Source of the DNA: Mycolicibacterium sp. TY81
GTDB lineage: Bacteria > Actinomycetota > Actinomycetes > Mycobacteriales > Mycobacteriaceae
Direction: 5' to 3'
Assembly: GCF_018326285.1 (NCBI RefSeq)
Contig: NZ_AP023362.1
Coordinates: 2,728,001 to 2,792,000, forward strand
DNA length: 64,000 nucleotides
The notes under the pieces were generated by a model. That model was not told the DNA's origin, did no database searches, and was given only the letters and a program-made list of their open reading frames with translations. Both the position numbers and the translations under genes were made by a program. Shown here piece by piece: positions 24,137-33,614 of this stretch (the stretch's first letter is position 1; each line of letters starts with the position of its first letter).

Positions 24137-25105
24137 GTGTTCACCCTGCGGTTCGACATGCGGGCCCCGACCGGTGGCGCGCCGGCGTCGTCGCTGTATC
24201 CCGCCGCGCTCGACATGGCCGCGTGGGCCGAACCGCGCGGCCTGATCCTGCTGGTGGTGTCCGAGCATCACGCCGCCGAAGACGGGTACCTGCCCAGCCC
24301 GTTGCCGATGGCCGCGGCACTGGCCGCCCGCACCACATCGGTGCCCATCGCGGTGAGTGCCCTCATCCTGCCGTTGTAAAACCCGGTGCGGCTGGCCGAG
24401 GACATCGGCGTGCTGGATCATCTCAGCGGCGGACGGATCTCCTACACCTTGGGCGTCGGCTACCGGCCCGAGGAGTTCGAGTCACTCGGCGTGGACTATC
24501 ACCGCCGCGGCGAATTGGCCGAGGAGCATCTGACGGTGTTGCTGAAAGCCCTTGACGGCGCACCGTTTGTGGACAACGAACGCGGCGTACTGGTCCGTCC
24601 CGCACCGGAGCGCAAGGTGCGCCTGTCGTATGGCGGGGGCACCCCGCGGGCCGCACGGCGCGCCGCACGCTTCGGGTTGGGGTTCAACGCGCAGAACAAC
24701 CTGCCGGAGCTGGTGGATGCCTACTACGACGAATGCGCCAGGCAGGGCCGCGTTCCCGGCCGCATGCAGCAACCACGACCCGGGTTTCCGACGACGGTCT
24801 TCGTGGCCGACGACGTCGACCGCGCCTGGGACGAGATCGGCCCGTACCTGCTCCACGACGCCATGACGTACGCCGACGGCCATCACGACCCGCACATCGT
24901 CAGCCTGTCGACCGCGCAGACCATCGACGCGCTGCGTGCCGAAAACGGCAGCCACCGCATCTATTCGGTGGACCAGGCGATCGAGGCCATCGCCCGGGAC
25001 GGCGTCCTGTCCCTGCACCCGCTCTGCGGTGGTCTACCGCCCGAACTCGCCTGGCCATATCTGCACCGTGTCGTGGACGAGGTCATGCCCGCCGTACCGC
25101 GTTAG
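24137..25105 (+). pseudogene. LLM-class F420-dependent oxidoreductase, interrupted by one stop codon
   Basis: A 322-codon frame runs from GTG 24137 to TAG 25105 with a single in-frame TAA at 24377-24379 (codon 81). Both halves are luciferase-like monooxygenase sequence: VVSEHHAAEDGYLPSPLPMA before the stop and NPVRLAEDIGVLDHLSGGR after it. Relatives read LPL-Tyr/His-NP here, so a one-base change from TAC or TAT explains the stop. No frameshift is seen and the remainder is intact, so it is a recent pseudogene, a sequencing error, or a readthrough site. A GTG at 24386 could restart but would lack the N-terminal barrel strands. Third gene of the KstR-box operon. Confidence 0.85.
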
Positions 25106-25980
25106 AAGCGCACACCGGTCAGCGATTCCGCGCAATCCCAAAGTCGCTGCGCGACAAGTGGGTCACGGGCGGCGGCGGCCAACTCGACCTTGACCGGTGC
25201 ACCCGTCATCTGCAGGCGACCGCCCGGGCCGTAGAAGTCACCGGCGGCGGCGCCGGAGTCGGTCGCCGCACGCAACACCGGCAGGGCTCCGGCGTCCGCA
25301 TCCTGCACGAACCATGACGTCGAGAACCGCAGTCGCGGGTGATACGCCAGCTGCTGCCAGCCCTGGTCCCGAAGAATCGCGGTACGGGCGCTGCCGGGAT
25401 GCGCGGCCACACACATGGCCTGGTGCCGCCGGTTGTACTCGGACATGAACAGCAGTTGCGCCAGTTTCGAATTGGCGTACGCCTTGGCGCTGCGGAACTT
25501 CCTGCGGCTCTGCAGATCCTCGAAGTCGATGAGGCCACGGCGGTGCGTCAGGCTGCTCACCATCACGATGCGCGCGGCCCGGTCGTGCAGCAGACCCGTG
25601 AGGGCGAAATGCCCGAGGAAGTTCACCCCGAAATCCCCCTCGAAACCGTCCCTGGTCTCGGTGCGCACAGGATGCATGACGCCGGCGTTGTTGATCAGCA
25701 GGTCGATTCTGCGGTGCCGCGCACGAAGACCCTCGGCGCAGCGCCGTACCGAGGCCAGGTCCGCCAGGTCCAATTCCGCGAATTCGGTTGTCGCGTCGGG
25801 TAGTGCGGCCTGCACCTGCCGAGCGGCGTCGGCATTGCGGCACGCGAGCACCACAGTCGCCCCGAGCCCGGCCAGACCCCTGACGACCTCGACGCCGATA
25901 CCGCTGTTCGCTCCGGTGACCACCGCGACGCGTCCGTCCTGACGGCTTGCGTCGGACAGGGTCCAAGGTGTGCTCGTCAT
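25102..25980 (-). CDS. Short-chain dehydrogenase/reductase (retinol-dehydrogenase-like)
   Basis: 292 aa. NAD(P)-binding TGANSGIG (about 22-29), NNAGVM (about 96-101), catalytic Ser in VMVSSLTHRRG and YxxxK as YANSKLAQ. Classical SDR of the oxidoreductase type common in mycobacteria; substrate unknown. It is the last gene behind allophanate hydrolase (27-base gap) and may be co-transcribed with the nitrogen cluster. Its stop overlaps the convergent LLM stop (TTAG shared). Confidence 0.88.
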   Translation of the reverse strand: MTSTPWTLSDASRQDGRVAVVTGANSGIGVEVVRGLAGLGATVVLACRNADAARQVQAALPDATTEFAELDLADLASVRRCAEGLRARHRRIDLLINNAGVMHPVRTETRDGFEGDFGVNFLGHFALTGLLHDRAARIVMVSSLTHRRGLIDFEDLQSRRKFRSAKAYANSKLAQLLFMSEYNRRHQAMCVAAHPGSARTAILRDQGWQQLAYHPRLRFSTSWFVQDADAGALPVLRAATDSGAAAGDFYGPGGRLQMTGAPVKVELAAAARDPLVAQRLWDCAESLTGVRF

Positions 25981-26007
25981 GTCCGTTGCAGCGTAGCCGC
26001 CACTACC

Positions 26008-27687
26008 TCACTGGGTGGCGAACTCGCGGGCCTGGAGATACGCCCGCCAGCCGCCGAATTCCGAGATGTCGGGCGCCGCGATGGCGGCCTCGTCGGCGCA
26101 CACGAAGCCGGTCTCCCAAGTCCCGTCGTCGAGTTCCACCGCCGCCAGGCCCATCGGCGTCGGGAGGGCGGCCAGGAACGTCCCGAGCGCGGCCGGCGAG
26201 AGCGACCAGCACTCCACCTCGAAGGCCCGCCCGCCATGGGGCAGCCGCACCAGCGCGGGCTTGCCCGACGGTAGCGCCGTCATCCGGTAGCGCTCGGCCG
26301 TGCGCGCCGGCCCGTCCCACCGCGCCCCGAGATCGTGGAGCTGACCGGCCAGCGGCTGATCACGCAGATGCGCTCCGGCCACGACCAGCGTCAGCACCCC
26401 GGCGCCCGCGCGCTCCGGCCAGGACGCCGCCGCGCTGCGCTCACCGCCGCCTAGCCGGGCCGCGATGTCCGCGACCACCGCGTCATCGAAGGCTCGCCCC
26501 AAGACCGTGACGCCGAATTGTGCTGTGGTGCCGTCGGCTTCGGCGACCTCGCCCGCCGGAACCGCGACGCCGCACATGTCGAAGAGATTGCAGAAGTTGG
26601 TATACGTGCCGATCCGGGCATTGACCCCGACCGGGTCGGCCGCCACCTCGGCGAGCGTCGGATGCAGTGGAGCAGTGGGGACGAGCAGCGCGTCGCACTC
26701 CTCCAATGCCCGGAATGCCCGCTCCCGCAGGCGGTCCAGCTCACGACGGTCACGCAACAGCCCGGTCGCGGTGTGGGTGCCACCGGCGGTGATGATGGCC
26801 GCGACCGTCGGGTCCAGACCGGCGTCGGCACCGGCACCACTTATGAAATCCCCCACCGCCTCCGTGCGCTCGGCGACCAGCGCCCCGTCGTACAGCAGCC
26901 GGGCGGCAGCCAGGAAGTCCGTCAGATCGATGGGGACGATGCGCATCCCGGCATCCCGGGCGGCATCGACGGCGCGCTGGAACGCGGCATCCCAGCCGGG
27001 CGCCATCGCGGGCAATTCGGCGGGCACCGCCAGCACCGGCTCGGCCGGGGCGGCCAAGCGCGTCGACGCGGGCCACGGCCGCTGCGTCGTGGTCGCCATC
27101 ACGGCCATGGCGCTCTCCGCCGTGGCCAGGTCACGCGCCAGGATCGTCACGCAGTCATAGCTCGGGCAGGCCGGGACGACGCCTGCCGTCGACACCAGCC
27201 CGATGGTGCCCTTGATCCCGACGAGGCCCTGGTACGCCGCCGGTACCCGGCCGGATCCGGCAGTGTCCGTGGCGATTCCGATGTCGGCCGCACCGATGGC
27301 CACCGCGACGGCCGAGCCCGACGACGAGCCGCCCGATATCCGGTCCGGGCGCCGCGCGTCACGCACCGCGCCGTAGGGACTACGGGTGCCGACGAGCCCG
27401 GTGGCGAACTGATCCAGATTGGTCTTGCCGATCACGACCGCGCCGGCCGCCCGCAGCGCGGCCACCACCGGCGCGTCGGCATCCGGGGTGTAGGCGTAGC
27501 CCGGGCACGCCGCCGTGGTCGGCAGACCCGCGACGTCGACGTTGTCCTTGACCGCCAGCAGCTGACCGGCCAGCGGTCCCTGCGCCTGTGCGACCTCGCG
27601 GCGCACGGTGTCCTCGTCCCGGACGGTGATGAAGGCCTCCGGTCGCTGTGCGATGGCCGCGTAGGCGGCGCTGATCCGGTCCGTCAT
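26008..27687 (-). CDS. atzF: Allophanate hydrolase
   Basis: 559 aa. Amidase-signature domain with Lys K47 (AVKDN), cis-Ser S120 (SGGSSSG) and nucleophile S144 in DTAGSGRVPA, the form typical of allophanate hydrolases, followed by the C-terminal allophanate hydrolase domain (from about 440, EVECWSLSPAALGTFLA). It splits allophanate to ammonia and CO2 in the cytoplasm. The ATG overlaps the stop of the carboxyltransferase gene (ATGA). With that gene and the two DUF1989 genes it completes the second half of a urea or guanidine degradation route. Confidence 0.93.
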   Translation of the reverse strand: MTDRISAAYAAIAQRPEAFITVRDEDTVRREVAQAQGPLAGQLLAVKDNVDVAGLPTTAACPGYAYTPDADAPVVAALRAAGAVVIGKTNLDQFATGLVGTRSPYGAVRDARRPDRISGGSSSGSAVAVAIGAADIGIATDTAGSGRVPAAYQGLVGIKGTIGLVSTAGVVPACPSYDCVTILARDLATAESAMAVMATTTQRPWPASTRLAAPAEPVLAVPAELPAMAPGWDAAFQRAVDAARDAGMRIVPIDLTDFLAAARLLYDGALVAERTEAVGDFISGAGADAGLDPTVAAIITAGGTHTATGLLRDRRELDRLRERAFRALEECDALLVPTAPLHPTLAEVAADPVGVNARIGTYTNFCNLFDMCGVAVPAGEVAEADGTTAQFGVTVLGRAFDDAVVADIAARLGGGERSAAASWPERAGAGVLTLVVAGAHLRDQPLAGQLHDLGARWDGPARTAERYRMTALPSGKPALVRLPHGGRAFEVECWSLSPAALGTFLAALPTPMGLAAVELDDGTWETGFVCADEAAIAAPDISEFGGWRAYLQAREFATQ

Positions 27688-29705
27688 GCGACTTCCTGTC
27701 CTGTTGTGGCGCAGGGCTTCTTGCGTGCGCCGATCTCACCGCTGGCCTCCCAGCGGGCCCGCTCCTCGTTGCGGGCGGCCGTCATACGCTGTCGTACCGC
27801 GGCGATGTCGTCGGCTTCGCTCGAGAGGAAGTTCAGGTAGTCCGCGATGCGGAACTCGCCGTCGGTGATGTCGACCGTCCCGCGTCCGGCGGCGACGTCG
27901 GCCCGCAGATCGGTCAGTTCCTCCGACGACACCGGGTACCACGACACCTGGTCGAAGAATCGCAGCAGCCACGGCTGTTCCGGCTCGAAACCCGGTGCGG
28001 ACAACGGGAACCGGTGGTTCCACACCTGGGTGGTGCGGCCCATCAACTGGTAGCCGCCCGGGCCTTCCATACCGTAGATGCAGAGGTAGGCACCGCCGAT
28101 CCCGACCGCGTTCTCCGGCGTCCAGGTGCGGGCCGGGTTGTACTTGGTGGTGACCACCCGGTGGCGGGGATCGACCGGGGTGGCGACGGGCGCACCGAGG
28201 TAGACGTCCCCCAGACCGAGCACGAGATAACTTGCCGCATGGACGATGTCGAACACCTCCTGCTGCGACTCGAGGCCGTTCATCCGCCGGATGAACTCGA
28301 TGTTGCTCGGGCACCACGGCGCGTCGTCGCGCACACCGTTGCGGTACCGGTCGATGGCGAGCCGGATGGTCGGGTCATCCCAACTCAATGGCAGCCGCAC
28401 CGAGCGGCTCGGCAGCACCAGTTGGTCGACGGGCCCGAGCGCGGACTCGAGGTCGAGCACGAAGGCCGTCATCGCCTGGTGATCGGTGAGCGCGGCGTCG
28501 AATTTGACCTGCAGCGAACGGATTCCGGGTGTCAGGTCGATGATGCCGCGGGGCCGGTGTGCGTCGATCGCGGTGTGCAGCGCGTGCACCCGCGCCCGCA
28601 GCACCAGATCCAGTGTCATCGTGCCGTATTCGACCAGCAGATTGTCATCGCCGCTGCGGCGCAGGGTCATCGACGTCGTCCCGTCACCGGTGACGCCGCG
28701 GTGCAGCACCCCATCGTCGCCGTCGCCGCGCGGGCTGCGCACCACCGGGGACGCCGCGCGCCGCGAGGTGCCCAGGGCCGCCAGCGGTGCCGCGGCACTG
28801 GCCCGCACCGGAACGAAGCGCACCCGGTCGCCGGGCGTGAGCTGCCCGAGCTTCCAGCGGTCCGCCGACGTCACCGTCACGGGGCAGACGAAACCGCCGA
28901 GGCTGGGTCCGTCCGGACCGAGCAGGATCGGGGTGTCGCCGGTGAAGTCAAGGGCGCCAACCGAATACGGCGTGTCATGGATGTTCGACGGGTGCAGGCC
29001 GGCCTCGCCGCCGTCGGGCCGGGCCCACTGCGGCTTCGGCCCGACGAGGCGCACACCGGTGCGGTCGAGGTTGTGGTCCACCAGATACGTGGCCTCGTAG
29101 AGGCTTTCGATGTCGGCTCGGGTGAAGAACTCCGGCGCGCCGTGCGGTCCCTCGGTGACCGCCAGGCGCCATTCGTGGCCGATCGACGGGATTTCCTCAT
29201 CGGTCAGCCGGCGCGGTCGTCCGCCCGGGGTGCCCAGATCGAGACGGTCGCCGGCCGCGAGGGCCCGCCCGCCGGCGCCGAACTTCCCGAGCGTGAACGT
29301 CGAGCGCGAGCCGAGGTACGCCTCGGCCTCGATACCGCCGGCCACCGCGATGTAGATGCGCATGCCGACGCCCTGTACGGCGCCGATCTCGAGCACACCG
29401 CCCTCCGGGACCGCGATGGGTGCCCACTGCCGCGCCGGGACGCCGTCGAGCGTGACCGATACCGGTGCGCCGGTGACGCAGACGACCGTCGCCTCGTCGA
29501 ATCCCAGTGTCGGACCGGCCATCGTGGCCTCGAGGCCGGGTGCGCCTTCGGCGTTACCGACCGCGAGGTTGGCCAACCGCAGCGACAGGTCGTCCATCGG
29601 ACCTGACGGCGGTACGCCCACCTGCCAGTAGCCGATGCGGCCCGGCCAGTCCTGGACGGTGGTGCTCGGCCCGGGCCGCAGCACGGTGAGGGCGGATGGC
29701 GCCAT
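27684..29705 (-). CDS. Stand-alone carboxyltransferase half of urea/guanidine carboxylase
   Basis: 673 aa. Residues 1-310 are an AHS2 (CT A-B) domain (TTVQDWPGRIGYWQVGVPPSGPMD in pieces, then DGPSLGGFVCPVT) and residues 345-640 an AHS1 (CT C-D) domain with VLGLGDVYLGAP, KYNPARTWTPENAVGIGG and GPGGYQLMGRT. These residues match urea-carboxylase CT rather than the PxpB/PxpC 5-oxoprolinase pair. A full carboxylase is about 1200 aa with biotin carboxylase before and a biotin carrier after; both are missing, and no such gene is in the window. The carboxylase and carrier must come from elsewhere, or the protein has another role. AAGGAG precedes the ATG. Confidence 0.85.
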   Translation of the reverse strand: MAPSALTVLRPGPSTTVQDWPGRIGYWQVGVPPSGPMDDLSLRLANLAVGNAEGAPGLEATMAGPTLGFDEATVVCVTGAPVSVTLDGVPARQWAPIAVPEGGVLEIGAVQGVGMRIYIAVAGGIEAEAYLGSRSTFTLGKFGAGGRALAAGDRLDLGTPGGRPRRLTDEEIPSIGHEWRLAVTEGPHGAPEFFTRADIESLYEATYLVDHNLDRTGVRLVGPKPQWARPDGGEAGLHPSNIHDTPYSVGALDFTGDTPILLGPDGPSLGGFVCPVTVTSADRWKLGQLTPGDRVRFVPVRASAAAPLAALGTSRRAASPVVRSPRGDGDDGVLHRGVTGDGTTSMTLRRSGDDNLLVEYGTMTLDLVLRARVHALHTAIDAHRPRGIIDLTPGIRSLQVKFDAALTDHQAMTAFVLDLESALGPVDQLVLPSRSVRLPLSWDDPTIRLAIDRYRNGVRDDAPWCPSNIEFIRRMNGLESQQEVFDIVHAASYLVLGLGDVYLGAPVATPVDPRHRVVTTKYNPARTWTPENAVGIGGAYLCIYGMEGPGGYQLMGRTTQVWNHRFPLSAPGFEPEQPWLLRFFDQVSWYPVSSEELTDLRADVAAGRGTVDITDGEFRIADYLNFLSSEADDIAAVRQRMTAARNEERARWEASGEIGARKKPCATTGQEVA

Positions 29706-29750
29706 TCCGGTACTCCTTCGAATGCAGAACGCGGTGCGAGAGAACGTGGA

Positions 29751-30398
29751 TCAGGACGGGCGGGTGACGATCATCCGCACCGGTGTCGGATCGAAGCCGT
29801 TGCACGGGTTGTTGATCTGCGGGCAATTGGACACCAGCACGAGGACGTCGGTGTCGGCGCGCAGCGCCACCCGCAGTCCCGGCGCCGACAGCCCGTCGAC
29901 GATGCCGAGCGTGCCGTCGGCCTCCACCGGCACGTTCATGAAGAAGTTGAGATTCGGTGCCAGGTCACGCTTTCCGAGGCCGTAGCGGGCGCCTTCGATG
30001 AGAAAGTTCTCGACGCACGCATGCTGATGGCGGGTGTGGTGGCCGTAGCGCAGGGTGTTGGACTCCTGCGAGCAGGCGCCGCCGACGGTGTCGTGATTGC
30101 CGACCTCGTCGGCCACCACGGTCATCAGTGCCCCACCGTCGCTGTCGCGCAACACGGTTCCGGTGCTGACGAACAGCGACTTCTGCGCCGTGATGGTGGT
30201 CTGGGCGCTGTACCGGCGGGACGTGTCGTGCGCCCCGTAGATCAGCGTGTCCACGGCCTGATTGCCGTGCAGGTCGACGATGGTCAGCACGTCGCCTGCC
30301 GCGACGATCGCCGACCAGGGGCCGCGGGCCTCGACGATCTCGTCGAGGATGGTCGTGCCGGACACCAGCGCGGGGACCGAGTCGATGACGGTGCTCAT
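29751..30398 (-). CDS. DUF1989 protein, carboxyguanidine deiminase-type subunit 1
   Basis: 215 aa from the ATG at 30398 (overlaps the previous stop, ATGA; AAGGAG upstream). DUF1989 family, formerly urea-carboxylase-associated protein 1. The Cys/His-rich segment GGACSQESN...HHTRHQHACVENF (about 104-131) and N-terminal DLHGNQAVDTL fit the family. In bacteria that degrade guanidine, the two DUF1989 subunits form a deiminase acting on carboxyguanidine to give allophanate, which AtzF then hydrolyses. The pairing with AtzF and a carboxyltransferase here supports that role. Confidence 0.82.
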   Translation of the reverse strand: MSTVIDSVPALVSGTTILDEIVEARGPWSAIVAAGDVLTIVDLHGNQAVDTLIYGAHDTSRRYSAQTTITAQKSLFVSTGTVLRDSDGGALMTVVADEVGNHDTVGGACSQESNTLRYGHHTRHQHACVENFLIEGARYGLGKRDLAPNLNFFMNVPVEADGTLGIVDGLSAPGLRVALRADTDVLVLVSNCPQINNPCNGFDPTPVRMIVTRPS

Positions 30399-31258
30399 GC
30401 GGGAACTCCTTCGGTGAGATGCAGTGCGGTCCAGACGTCTTCGGTGTTGCGGTGGGCGCGTTCGTATTCGGGTCCGATGGTTTCGGCGCGCGCGGCCAGA
30501 TCGGCGAGGTCGGCGGGAGCCGACCAGGCCAGCACCTCCAGGTCCGAGGTGTTGAAGCTCGGCTCCGGGTCGAGCGGGTGTGCGGTGTTGGCGATCGCCA
30601 CGATCACCGGCAGGTGCACGAGCAGTTCGACCGCGGTGCCGGCTCCGGCCGAGCCCGTCGACACCAGTTGCCCCGCATCGTCGGCCCGGACGCCGTGGAA
30701 GAACGACACGCCGGGGCCTACGTCGCGCGGCCCCAGGCCGTGCTTGAGTGCGGCGAGCACCAGCAACTCGCGGCCGGCCGGGCTGTCCGAGTGCGCGCTG
30801 CCGGCACCGTAGCGGGCTTCGTTCTGGGACCGGGTTGTGGTGCCGCACAGGGCATCGTGGTGGCCCGAGGTGTCGGCGACGATGGTCGCCAGGACCCGGC
30901 CCTGGTCATCGAGCAGCGGGTGCCCGGTGCCGAGATACGCCTGCCACGGCACCTTGACGGTGTCGGCGGTGTTCAGGCGCTCCCAGGGGGCGTCGGCGCG
31001 CCACAGCAGCAGGTGCGCGCACGCGCGGCCCTCGATGTCGGTGAGCCGCAACCGCGTTCCGCGGTCCAGCACCTTGCTGGTGTAGCGGCCGCCGGGCACC
31101 GTCTCGGCCCAGGTCAGGCGGTGGGCATCGACACCGGCCGGCGGTGTCGGCCACTGCGATGCCGGAACGACGGGCATGGCCGCGGTGTGGGTGCCGGCCT
31201 GCGCACGGGCGTGTGCGCGGGCGGCGGCGGTCGTCGAGGTGGTGGACGAAGAACTCAC
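30395..31258 (-). CDS. DUF1989 protein, carboxyguanidine deiminase-type subunit 2
   Basis: 287 aa with an unusual Ser/Thr/Ala/His-rich N-terminal extension of about 45 residues; the DUF1989 core begins near HRLTWAETVPGGRYTSKVLDRG. Conserved stretch TSGHHDALCGTTTRSQNE is at about 130-148. Paired with the gene just downstream, as in guanidine-degradation clusters where the two proteins act together. GTG start at 31258 behind AAAGGA. An ATG at residue 28 (AAMPVVP) is an alternative start that would remove most of the extension. Confidence 0.8.
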   Translation of the reverse strand: MSSSSTTSTTAAARAHARAQAGTHTAAMPVVPASQWPTPPAGVDAHRLTWAETVPGGRYTSKVLDRGTRLRLTDIEGRACAHLLLWRADAPWERLNTADTVKVPWQAYLGTGHPLLDDQGRVLATIVADTSGHHDALCGTTTRSQNEARYGAGSAHSDSPAGRELLVLAALKHGLGPRDVGPGVSFFHGVRADDAGQLVSTGSAGAGTAVELLVHLPVIVAIANTAHPLDPEPSFNTSDLEVLAWSAPADLADLAARAETIGPEYERAHRNTEDVWTALHLTEGVPA

Positions 31259-31292
31259 GAGAATCCTTTCGGCAGTTGTGGATTGGACGGGG

Positions 31293-32801
31293 TCAGAGCG
31301 ACCCGACGGGGCGCGGGTGGGTCCGGCGGTACGGGAAGCACAGGGCGCCGAGCGCGACGATGGCGACGATGGTGAACGGCCCGGCCCACACCAGCAGCGG
31401 CATGGTGCCCGTCGGGTCGTAGATTTCCGGCCGCGGCCAGGCCAGGTTGATCACCATGGCCACGCCGTACACCACGGCGAAGATGTTGACCGGCAGGCCC
31501 CAGCGACCCAGCGAGAACAGCGGCCGGCCACCGGCGTCGGTAACCGAAGCGTCCCAGCGCATTCCGCGCAGCCGGTGCGCCAGGAGCGGCGCCGTCACCA
31601 GCAGGTACGCGATGTAGATCGCGATGATGCAGACGCTGGCCAGGGTCGCGAAGATCGCGGAGTTGCCGACGTTCACCAGGAGCACACCGACGCACGCGAC
31701 ACCGACCACGATCGCGGGCGGAATCGGCGTCCCGGTAGCCGGATTGACGCGCGACAGCAGCGCCGAGAACGGCAGCCGCTGGTCGCGTGCCATGGAGAAC
31801 ATCAGGCGGGTGGCAGCGGTCTGAATTGCCAAGGTGCAGATGAAGATCGCGATGGCCACATCGATGAGGAGCAGCGTGCCCCAGGGCGAGGACAGCACCG
31901 CACCCAGCACGTAGGGCAGGCCTTCGGTCGCCAGACGGCCGTCGGTCAGGCTCGGCGCCGCCATCAGTGCGCCGACGATCATGAGACCGCCACCGAGTGC
32001 CGAGACGGTGAGCGCCGACCGGATGGTGCGCGGGGCGACGCGGCGCGCGTCGCGCGTCTCCTCGGCGAGTTCACCGGCCGAGCCGAAGCCGACCATGACG
32101 TAGGCGGCCATCAGACCCGAGGCGATCCAGGCCCAGCCGTAGCCCGAACCCGCGCCACCGGTGTCGAAGACGACCTGCGGACCGCGCTGTGCGTGCGTGA
32201 AGAAGACTCCGACGACCGCGATGACGCCGACGATCTCGCAGCAGACACCGATCGTCGCGACGCGCGACATCCAGCGCACGCCGATGCAGTTGATCGTGGT
32301 GGTGATGATCAGCAGCGCGGTACCCAACAGCACGGCGTTGGCGGCGCCATCGGCCGACGTGAGTGCGGTATCGGTGCCGATGATCTGGAAGCCCGGCCAC
32401 ACCGCCGGCAGCACCACCTGCAGCGCGATGGCCGCGGCGGATGCGGTGATGATCTGGGCGACGATCATGAACCAGCCACCGAACCAGCCGACCACCTCAC
32501 CGCCGAGGCGGCGGGCCCACTGGTAGATGGCCCCCGAGATCGGGTAGCGGGCCGCGAGTTCGGCGAAGCACAAGGCCACCGCGAACTGTCCGATGAACAC
32601 CACCGGCCAGGTCCAGAAGAACGCCGGCCCGCCGAAACTGTATCCGAGGCCGAACAATTGGAAGATCGTGGTGAGGATCGACACGAACGAGAAACCGGCC
32701 GCGAACGAGGCGAACTTGCCCAGCGAGCGGTGCAGCTGTTGGTCGTAGCCGAACTCGGCGAGATCGTCGTGATCTGCCGGCGACGTGTTGGTCAATGTCA
32801 T
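31293..32801 (-). CDS. APC-family permease of the guanidine/urea cluster
   Basis: 502 aa with twelve hydrophobic segments. The N-terminal FGYDQQLHRSLGKFASFAAGFS and the CFAELAARYPISGAIYQWARRLGG stretch are typical of the GABA/amino-acid permease branch annotated as urea-carboxylase-associated permeases. It probably imports the nitrogen substrate (guanidine, a guanidino compound or an amine). First gene of the minus-strand cluster, 34 bases before the DUF1989 pair, and divergent from a TetR gene. Confidence 0.88.
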   Translation of the reverse strand: MTLTNTSPADHDDLAEFGYDQQLHRSLGKFASFAAGFSFVSILTTIFQLFGLGYSFGGPAFFWTWPVVFIGQFAVALCFAELAARYPISGAIYQWARRLGGEVVGWFGGWFMIVAQIITASAAAIALQVVLPAVWPGFQIIGTDTALTSADGAANAVLLGTALLIITTTINCIGVRWMSRVATIGVCCEIVGVIAVVGVFFTHAQRGPQVVFDTGGAGSGYGWAWIASGLMAAYVMVGFGSAGELAEETRDARRVAPRTIRSALTVSALGGGLMIVGALMAAPSLTDGRLATEGLPYVLGAVLSSPWGTLLLIDVAIAIFICTLAIQTAATRLMFSMARDQRLPFSALLSRVNPATGTPIPPAIVVGVACVGVLLVNVGNSAIFATLASVCIIAIYIAYLLVTAPLLAHRLRGMRWDASVTDAGGRPLFSLGRWGLPVNIFAVVYGVAMVINLAWPRPEIYDPTGTMPLLVWAGPFTIVAIVALGALCFPYRRTHPRPVGSL

Positions 32802-32829
32802 CCGATTCCGATTCTGCGAGGCCTAATAC

Positions 32830-32843
32830 CTGTCAACTGACAG
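32830..32843. promoter_or_regulatory. Candidate TetR operator for the permease cluster
   Basis: CTGTCA-AC-TGACAG, arms of 6 bp, 29 bases before the permease start, in the AT-rich part of the 162-base divergent region. It includes TTGACA on the minus strand. No guanidine-I (ykkC) riboswitch sequence was seen between the permease and the regulator. Confidence 0.45.
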
Positions 32844-32963
32844 AATTAATGGGAAGCGTGACGCAGAGGGGTCACCGACGTTTCCGACGTGGGTCGCGAT
32901 GTAACAGTTGCGTTTCACGCGAGCCGACGCTGCGCGAATGACCGCAGGTGGCACAGTAGTGGC

Positions 32964-33614
32964 ATGAGCCGCCCCGGCCGTCCCCGTCATCGCGATGCCC
33001 TACGCCCCGGCAGCACCGCCGTCGAACAGATCCTCGATGCCGCCGGAGAACTGTTTGTGACACAGGGCTTCACGGTCACCTCGACGCGGTCGATCGCCGA
33101 AGCCGTCGGCATCCGTCAGGCCTCGCTGTATCACCACTTCCCCAACAAGGAAGCCATCCTCGAGGCACTGCTCGACGCGACGGTGGTGCCGTCGCTGGAC
33201 TTCGCGCGGCGCGTGACGCGCTCGGTGGACGACCCGAAGGCGGCCCTCTGGGCGGTGACGGCCGGTGACGCGGCCAACCTGCTGTCCGTGCCGTGGAACC
33301 TGGGCCGGCTCTATCTGCTGCCGGAGGTCGACGGCATCGAGGGCTTCCACCGCCGGCGCCGCGAGTTGCACGCCGTCTACCGCGAACTGGCGGTCGACGC
33401 CGTCGGCGGCCGCGACGAGTTCCGCTGCGGCCTGCCGGTGCGCCTGACCGAGACGGTCATCGCGCAGCGCGTCGACGATCCCGAGATCACCGGCGACGAA
33501 GTGGCCGAGGCCATCGCCGATGCCGCCCTACGGGTGCTCGAGATCGAGGTCGACGACGCCCTGCGGGCCGAGGGACGGGCGCTGGTCGAGCAGCACCTGG
33601 CCGAGCCGGATTAG
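32964..33614 (+). CDS. TetR-family regulator, probable controller of the nitrogen cluster
   Basis: 216 aa from the ATG at 32964. Clear TetR helix-turn-helix ([15 protein letters not shown] then [20 protein letters not shown], about 23-72). Divergent from the permease with a TetR-size inverted repeat in between, so local control is likely. Its stop overlaps the convergent hisI stop (TTAG). Confidence 0.87.

Follow-up and report, generated by a model that had tools for sequence, protein, structure and literature searches.

A free-standing carboxyltransferase of guanidine type in a putative guanidine-scavenging operon of Mycolicibacterium sp. TY81 and its family

The closest described counterpart of the locus reported here is the bacterial route that combines guanidine carboxylase, the carboxyguanidine deiminase CgdAB and allophanate hydrolase. 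In guanidine carboxylase, the biotin carboxylase (BC), biotin carboxyl carrier protein (BCCP) and carboxyltransferase (CT) domains share one chain. Guanidine carboxylases are told from urea carboxylases by an Asp at the position of residue 1330 of the Kluyveromyces lactis enzyme, with Asp at 1584 also needed (PMC11410670), and a review likewise assigns Asp to guanidine carboxylases and Asn to urea carboxylases (PMC12186494). Both subunits of carboxyguanidine deiminase belong to PF09347, that is, DUF1989 (PMC11410670). We analysed a 64,000-nucleotide stretch of Mycolicibacterium sp. TY81 (positions 2,728,001-2,792,000 of a 6.14-Mb contig, in a genome of four contigs; hereafter the window). Here an operon for a permease, two DUF1989 proteins, a CT protein of 673 amino acids (aa) and the allophanate hydrolase AtzF resembles the known route in the whole length of its CT, in both Asp residues, in the gene order UAAP1-UAAP2-CT-AtzF and in its APC (amino acid-polyamine-organocation) permease. 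It differs in that the CT protein has neither BC nor BCCP.

Other known systems share single features with the window protein. The CT of K. lactis urea carboxylase/amidolyase (3va7, 5i8i) is homologous to it over residues 3-651 (E 9.3e-164), whereas the window protein has Asp for Asn at 1330 and lacks BC, BCCP and the allophanate hydrolase part that is present in 5i8i. PxpB/PxpC (MSMEG_0435-0436, YbgJK) has the same two CT subdomains and likewise no BC, but as two separate chains, and the window protein scores far below the cut-offs of the corresponding models (114 against 500 bits for NF045499, 32 against 145.6 bits for TIGR00370). The 5-oxoprolinase PxpB/PxpC uses ATP without biotin. In the acyl-CoA carboxylases of mycobacteria, one BC-BCCP alpha subunit serves several beta subunits, much like the sharing proposed below; this subunit, AccA3, is common to AccD4, AccD5 and AccD6 (PMC4347857, PMC11001197). 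Their beta subunits, unlike the window CT, are Carboxyl_trans proteins (PF01039) acting on acyl-CoA, a family described as non-homologous to the CT of urea carboxylase (PMC3199775). A literature search over titles and abstract openings found no description of a guanidine or urea carboxylase without BC. The pathway is known; the architecture of the enzyme is new.

On balance, we consider it probable that the window protein is a free-standing guanidine carboxyltransferase that takes carboxybiotin from acyl-CoA-carboxylase alpha subunits, in a guanidine-scavenging operon of the AmtR/GlnR type; the substrate, the reaction in vivo and the donor we infer. The permease would import guanidine, the CT protein would move the carboxyl group from carboxybiotin to guanidine to give carboxyguanidine, UAAP1 and UAAP2 would deiminate this to allophanate, and AtzF would hydrolyse allophanate to ammonia and CO2. 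The enzyme's own BC and BCCP domains would have been lost once, in an ancestor within the family. Carboxybiotin would since have been supplied in trans by BC-BCCP alpha subunits, most likely AccA3 (or AccA2) in TY81, with donors exchangeable between species.

A carboxyltransferase without biotin carboxylase or carrier

The 673-aa protein carries CT_A_B and CT_C_D in order on one chain. Compared with a full-length relative, it begins at the start of the CT domain and ends just short of the stretch that there connects CT with BCCP. Against the urea carboxylase model TIGR02712 it scores 924.1 bits, below the cut-off of 1303.85, and covers model positions 446-1115 of 1201. Domain and family profile searches found neither a BC nor a BCCP domain on this chain, and none of the genome's five Biotin_carb_C or nine Biotin_lipoyl matches falls within the window. 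The sequence-only reading, made from the letters of the window before this analysis, had held that only the carboxyltransferase half is present, with BC and carrier parts missing at both ends and from the window, and the profile coverage and genome inventory bear this out.

Across the genome, CT_A_B occurs in two proteins, the window CT protein and a PxpC. The five Biotin_carb_C proteins are two pyruvate carboxylases (Pyc; PYC_OADA and HMGL domains) and three proteins of AccA type, two of which have a BT_MCC_alpha domain. AccA1 and AccA2 are labels of this analysis, while AccA3 was named by its match to the chain called alpha3 subunit in PDB entry 9yx5 and related entries. AccA1 and AccA2 each adjoin an AccD; AccA3 has no adjoining AccD, but one lies about 14 kb off, and the genome encodes seven AccD-type proteins against three AccA. 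The nine Biotin_lipoyl matches include one free-standing 73-aa carrier (C1:3292018). None of the five BC proteins is of urea/guanidine type, all are assigned by domains and neighbours, and no dedicated BC-BCCP gene was found elsewhere in the genome. The check proposed in the sequence-only reading, a genome search for BC-BCCP proteins without CT, thus yielded the three proteins of AccA type, of which two have an AccD of their own next to them; its suggestion of a split enzyme encoded elsewhere found no dedicated counterpart among the five.

Substrate signature residues were read from an alignment of 103 rows. The window CT has Asp at both diagnostic sites (D253 and D500, equivalent to K. lactis 1330 and 1584), and the Asn expected of a urea type is absent. 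The Asp/Asp pair is found in all 62 rows of the BC-less clade described below and in all 31 full-length rows with UAAP; the eight full-length rows without UAAP in the retrieved stretch have Asn in seven cases and Asp in one (L097). Because both diagnostic Asp residues are conserved, the signature is read as that of guanidine, not urea. The locus had been called guanidine/urea-type; it is the guanidine half of that label that fits the signature.

Conservation extends well beyond these two sites. Of 201 positions conserved at 97% or above in the 31 full-length guanidine-type enzymes, 181 are conserved at 97% or above in the BC-less clade, 15 at 80-97% and five below 80%, with none switched to another fixed residue. 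As controls, the consensus of seven full-length urea-type enzymes keeps 179 of the 201, while the genome's own PxpB/PxpC pair lacks over half of the guanidine-type CT residues (PxpC keeps 45 of 93, PxpB 32 of 105). Judged by its residues, the protein is probably still a carboxyltransferase. A fold search with its predicted structure gave 5i8i and 3va7 (K. lactis urea amidolyase and urea carboxylase) as best matches; with a mean predicted local distance difference test score of 63.4, and below 50 in the active-site part (490-611), the model was used for confirmation of the fold and not for residues.

Distribution and origin within the family

A close CT is present in 52 of 148 genomes of the genus, one of them as a fragment at a contig edge. 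In 38 genomes (the window and 37 retrieved loci) it is BC-less and in 15 it is full-length; both forms occur together in one genome. In the family, close CTs (E up to 1e-100) occur in 140 of 201 genomes and 24 of 31 genera, and 39 selected loci retrieved from them comprise 25 BC-less and 14 full-length ones. Among named genomes, the best 80 of at least 592 relatives include 32 BC-less loci (from Mycobacterium, Mycolicibacterium, Mycolicibacter, Williamsia, Gordonia, Rhodococcus, Rhodococcoides, Nocardia and Skermania) and 48 others, mostly from other actinomycetes; these 48 are 46 labelled full-length plus L328 (at a contig edge) and L359 (BC present, more than 200 bases off), both counted as full-length. 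Rhodococcus erythropolis (L297) is among the CT-only species. A CT match was found in 14 of 346 genomes of the phylum. Two distant BC-less CTs, L173 (G432) and L174 (G450), lie outside the family and outside the BC-less clade, on long branches. At the two diagnostic sites L174, which sits with UAAP1/2 and AtzF, reads Ile/Asp, with Ile in place of the guanidine-type Asp, and L173, which is without such neighbours, reads Ala/Glu. The open frame reported for one further CT match (G192:C15:197422-199338) is 11,950 aa long and looks like a record artefact.

In a CT tree of the 103 rows, 62 BC-less rows, including the window, form one clade (Shimodaira-Hasegawa-like approximate likelihood ratio test support 99). 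Its sister group consists of 21 enzymes that are full-length and belong to the same family (support 96 for the pair and 94 for the sister group). Since these 62 rows form a single clade, BC and BCCP would most simply have been lost once within the family. In all 94 retrieved CT-only loci UAAP2 lies directly upstream of the CT gene, at a median distance of 15.5 bases and at most 475. A BC lies within the retrieved stretch in four of the 94 (L053, L057, L069 and L077), about 5 kb away; it is a pyruvate carboxylase by sequence in both loci compared (L077 in G016 and L057 in G073), and we take its position in the four loci as an effect of the insertion site.

The BC-less CT is under purifying selection: in 11 CT-only pairs the ratio of nonsynonymous to synonymous substitution rates (dN/dS) ranges over 0.04-0.20, and two full-length pairs give 0.077 and 0.081. 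Recurrence in the 94 retrieved loci and these ratios lead us to reject both a pseudogene and an error of assembly. The truncation is not peculiar to this genome; it is old and has been conserved within the bacterial family. The rows nearest to the window CT are L127 and L128, with 74-75% identity, compared with 63-69% for Mycobacterium relatives, and because of this closeness the window operon may have been transferred from a rhodococcus. L128 is probably from Rhodococcus phenolicus P0002.

Source of the carboxyl group

Three explanations for the missing parts had been put forward in the sequence-only reading: a borrowed acyl-CoA-carboxylase alpha subunit, a split enzyme encoded elsewhere, or a route that starts from another substrate. 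The first fits best of the three and has a precedent in PDB entry 9yx5. Its title names a long chain acyl-CoA carboxylase complex of M. smegmatis with MSMEG_0435-0436 bound, and its chains, by name, include AccA3 and an AHS1/AHS2 pair homologous to the window CT (title and chain names are the source here). The close match of that pair in the TY81 genome is the L172:7312-8878 pair (529 and 320 bits), of 5-oxoprolinase type.

We profiled candidate donors in 22 CT-only genomes, chosen for small size and spread over genera. The BC search of these genomes gave 103 matches, for which 92 retrieved stretches were compared (72 + 20), a few of them covering one gene twice; absences are claimed only where every match was compared (G153, G154, G163, G165, G183, G213, G278 and G324). 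AccA3 is found in 21 of the 22 genomes (not G154), AccA2 also in 21 (not G213), AccA1 in 20 (not G154 or G183) and Pyc in 17 (not G153, G163, G165, G278 or G324). By phyletic profile AccA2 and AccA3 are equal; 9yx5 favours AccA3.

In eight CT-only genomes (G152, G159, G166, G213, G242, G246, G294 and G295) the open frames with BC matches include some of 1827-2025 aa, which may be fused acyl-CoA carboxylases; four that were compared have only 38-42% identity to AccA proteins. In G242, which also has a BC-less CT, positions 242-3322 of L186 (G242:C3:466369-469692) encode a split carboxylase of AHS type, with a frame each for an 82-aa carrier, a 450-aa BC, CT_C_D and CT_A_B. G154 (3.16 Mb, one contig, listed as 99% complete) is the genome in which AccA3 was not found, and its BC proteins are of AccA2 type and Pyc only.

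The operon, its regulation and the alternatives

The genes are listed in Table 1. Outward from the promoter, the minus-strand unit runs permease, UAAP1, UAAP2, CT protein and AtzF, with the TetR gene divergent. This arrangement was described correctly from sequence, as was the nature of the DUF1989 pair: both proteins exceed the cut-offs of the UAAP1 and UAAP2 models and are of carboxyguanidine-deiminase type, and AtzF likewise exceeds its own. UAAP2 starts at the ATG near 30398, overlapping the UAAP1 stop, and not with the longer GTG open reading frame (ORF; 30848); the UAAP2 and AtzF genes each overlap the preceding gene. The short-chain dehydrogenase/reductase (SDR) gene, which had been counted as part of the unit, does adjoin it on the same strand, beginning 27 bases past AtzF. 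Across 91 retrieved CT loci there is a single, weak SDR match (52 bits), far from the operon (L144), and because the gene is not conserved beside the operon it is probably outside the pathway.

Table 1. Features of the guanidine-type locus in the window, by window position.
Feature	Position	Strand	Evidence and remarks
SDR oxidoreductase	25102-25980	-	NF004846 309 bits; adjoins operon
Allophanate hydrolase AtzF with C-terminal domain	26008-27687	-	TIGR02713 607 bits (cut-off 511); AH_C 136 bits; start overlaps CT stop
673-aa CT protein, free-standing, predicted guanidine type (D253, D500), without BC and BCCP	27684-29705	-	CT_A_B then CT_C_D; TIGR02712 446-1115/1201; 3va7 E 9.3e-164
UAAP2 (DUF1989), carboxyguanidine deiminase-type subunit	29751-30398	-	TIGR03424 325.6 bits (cut-off 284.7; scored on the longer ORF)
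UAAP1 (DUF1989), carboxyguanidine deiminase-type subunit	30395-31258	-	TIGR03425 293.9 bits (cut-off 205.95)
APC permease of urea-carboxylase system, probable guanidine importer	31293-32801	-	TIGR03428 855 bits (cut-off 740)
Palindromic operator-like site (perfect CTGTCANNTGACAG type) in the permease-TetR intergenic region	32830-32843	.	Sole exact copy in window
TetR-family regulator, divergent, probably AmtR-like	32889-33614	+	TetR_N 59.6 bits

The operator-like site is the perfect palindrome CTGTCA-ac-TGACAG. In the 400 bases upstream of the operon in 158 loci there are 30 sites without mismatch, 78 with one and 66 with two, where 0.38, 0.54 and 1.10, respectively, are expected from the rate elsewhere in the same loci, related genomes not being independent. 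After repeated genomes were removed, a site with at most two mismatches lies upstream of 82 of 87 distinct BC-less operons (CT-only loci with a placeable operon start) and 38 of 62 full-length ones, and A/T-rich flanks outside the searched core are common to both groups. The window site has the layout CTRT-N6-AYAG with A/T-rich flanks, which fits the published CTAT-N6-ATAG type of AmtR box (tttCTATN6AtAGat/aA in Corynebacterium glutamicum, PMC2723105). A TetR match of 34-57% identity occurs in 68 of 91 retrieved CT loci. The window TetR matches TetR_N, AmtR models being absent among its matches, and it is probably AmtR-like on the basis of the operator and of the gene order in PMC4222082. That order is the one of M. 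smegmatis msmeg_2184-2189, which we liken to the window unit by gene order only. There, msmeg_2184, 2185, 2186, 2187 and 2189 are reported to rise 48, 13, 32, 3 and 4 fold under nitrogen starvation; the genes seem GlnR-dependent, and AmtR, encoded elsewhere, represses those tested (PMC4222082). A GlnR site is reported at these genes (PMC3662644), and msmeg_2187 is named urea amidolyase or urea carboxylase in the two papers (PMC4222082, PMC3662644).

Several results weigh against a guanidine pathway fed by acyl-CoA-carboxylase alpha subunits. None of the BC families occurs in every one of the 22 CT-only genomes profiled, so that the phyletic profile gives no universal donor among them. In G154 the carriers above 50 bits are AccA2 and Pyc only, besides a two-lipoyl protein. 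Because AccA3 is missing in G154 and AccA2 in G213, neither is the sole possible donor unless one of these records is defective; the donor is therefore exchangeable, or it is not a biotin protein, or a record is incomplete. The pair bound in 9yx5 is of 5-oxoprolinase type, a different protein from the CT, and binding is not carboxyl transfer. The operator is absent from 24 of the 62 full-length operons, and no guanidine riboswitch reached the gathering score in the window and 18 related loci. Finally, allophanate hydrolase was sought in 24 Mycobacterium genomes whose CT and UAAP genes lack an adjoining AtzF, and 15 of these genomes gave no match above the cut-off at any place. Eight of the 15 have a strong urease match, and there allophanate could decay to urea and be used through urease. 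The other seven have none, and because allophanate hydrolase and a strong urease match are both missing the full pathway cannot run as written in them; detoxification or another product must be considered. The seven are G069, G073, G101, G086, G130, G016 and G022.

These seven genomes nevertheless keep a BC-less CT and UAAP1/2, as they might if the pathway ran as described with an N-substituted guanidine or a related compound as the natural substrate. In vitro, AmtR is released by neither urea nor amino acids, and guanidine is unnamed among the compounds in the account given of that experiment (PMC4222082). We regard such a substrate as unlikely: both guanidine-diagnostic residues are conserved, and the conserved positions match those of the full-length guanidine-type enzymes. 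The earlier suggestion of a route from another substrate gained no positive evidence.

One possible hypothesis for the lack of a common donor is that the CT works without carboxybiotin, through ATP activation of guanidine or bicarbonate as in PxpB/PxpC, or that it catalyses a different step, with a carboxylated or N-substituted guanidine as its substrate. PxpB/PxpC is homologous and stands alone, and 90 of the 94 CT-only loci have no BC gene in the retrieved stretch, in addition to the patchy donor profile. A changed chemistry would be expected to mark the active site, however, and the 181 of 201 biotin-enzyme residues kept at 97% or above, with none switched, unlike in the genome's PxpB/PxpC, make this decidedly unlikely.

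A dedicated carboxybiotin partner that has escaped recognition, for example the free 73-aa BCCP of the TY81 genome charged by some BC, is a very doubtful proposition. The solitary biotinyl protein does exist, and the split BCCP-BC-CT_C_D-CT_A_B operon of L186, from a CT-only relative, indicates that CTs of AHS type can have separate parts. All five BC proteins of TY81 are nevertheless accounted for as Pyc or AccA, searches for the small carrier in G154 and G183, both CT-only, gave nothing beyond weak matches scoring 23 and 28 bits, and a BC near the CT is confined to the four loci noted above, being Pyc in both that were compared.

Relatives of the CT such as KipI/KipA are seen as regulators, and the related pair bound to acyl-CoA carboxylase in 9yx5 could reflect regulation; 15 of 24 genomes, moreover, are without AtzF over the cut-off. 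A catalytically dead CT kept as a regulator or scaffold for acyl-CoA carboxylase binding is nevertheless highly improbable, given that all 62 rows of the clade retain the signature residues, that a carboxyguanidine-deiminase-type UAAP2 adjoins the CT in 94 of 94 loci, and that the operator is common to full-length enzymes.

Among the best 120 matches, which come from mycobacteria, rhodococci, gordonias, williamsias and tsukamurellas, proteins of this kind are named 'urea amidolyase' or 'urea carboxylase', yet of the three parts that such an enzyme needs they have only one. The results give reason to re-examine the role that AHS-type proteins play in the mycobacterial acyl-CoA carboxylase complex of 9yx5. 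If the CT should prove to be biotin-free, the usual picture of this carboxyltransferase family would fall. We see the chances as evenly balanced that one BC-carrier protein of lipid or amino-acid metabolism also charges a CT of an unrelated family, so that many species of the bacterial family make carboxyguanidine from the carboxybiotin pool of acyl-CoA carboxylase. If so, a carrier so far linked to lipid synthesis and amino-acid catabolism would also feed nitrogen assimilation. Carboxybiotin would then be a common currency whose donors can replace one another, and there would be a direct tie between nitrogen scavenging and the synthesis of lipid precursors.

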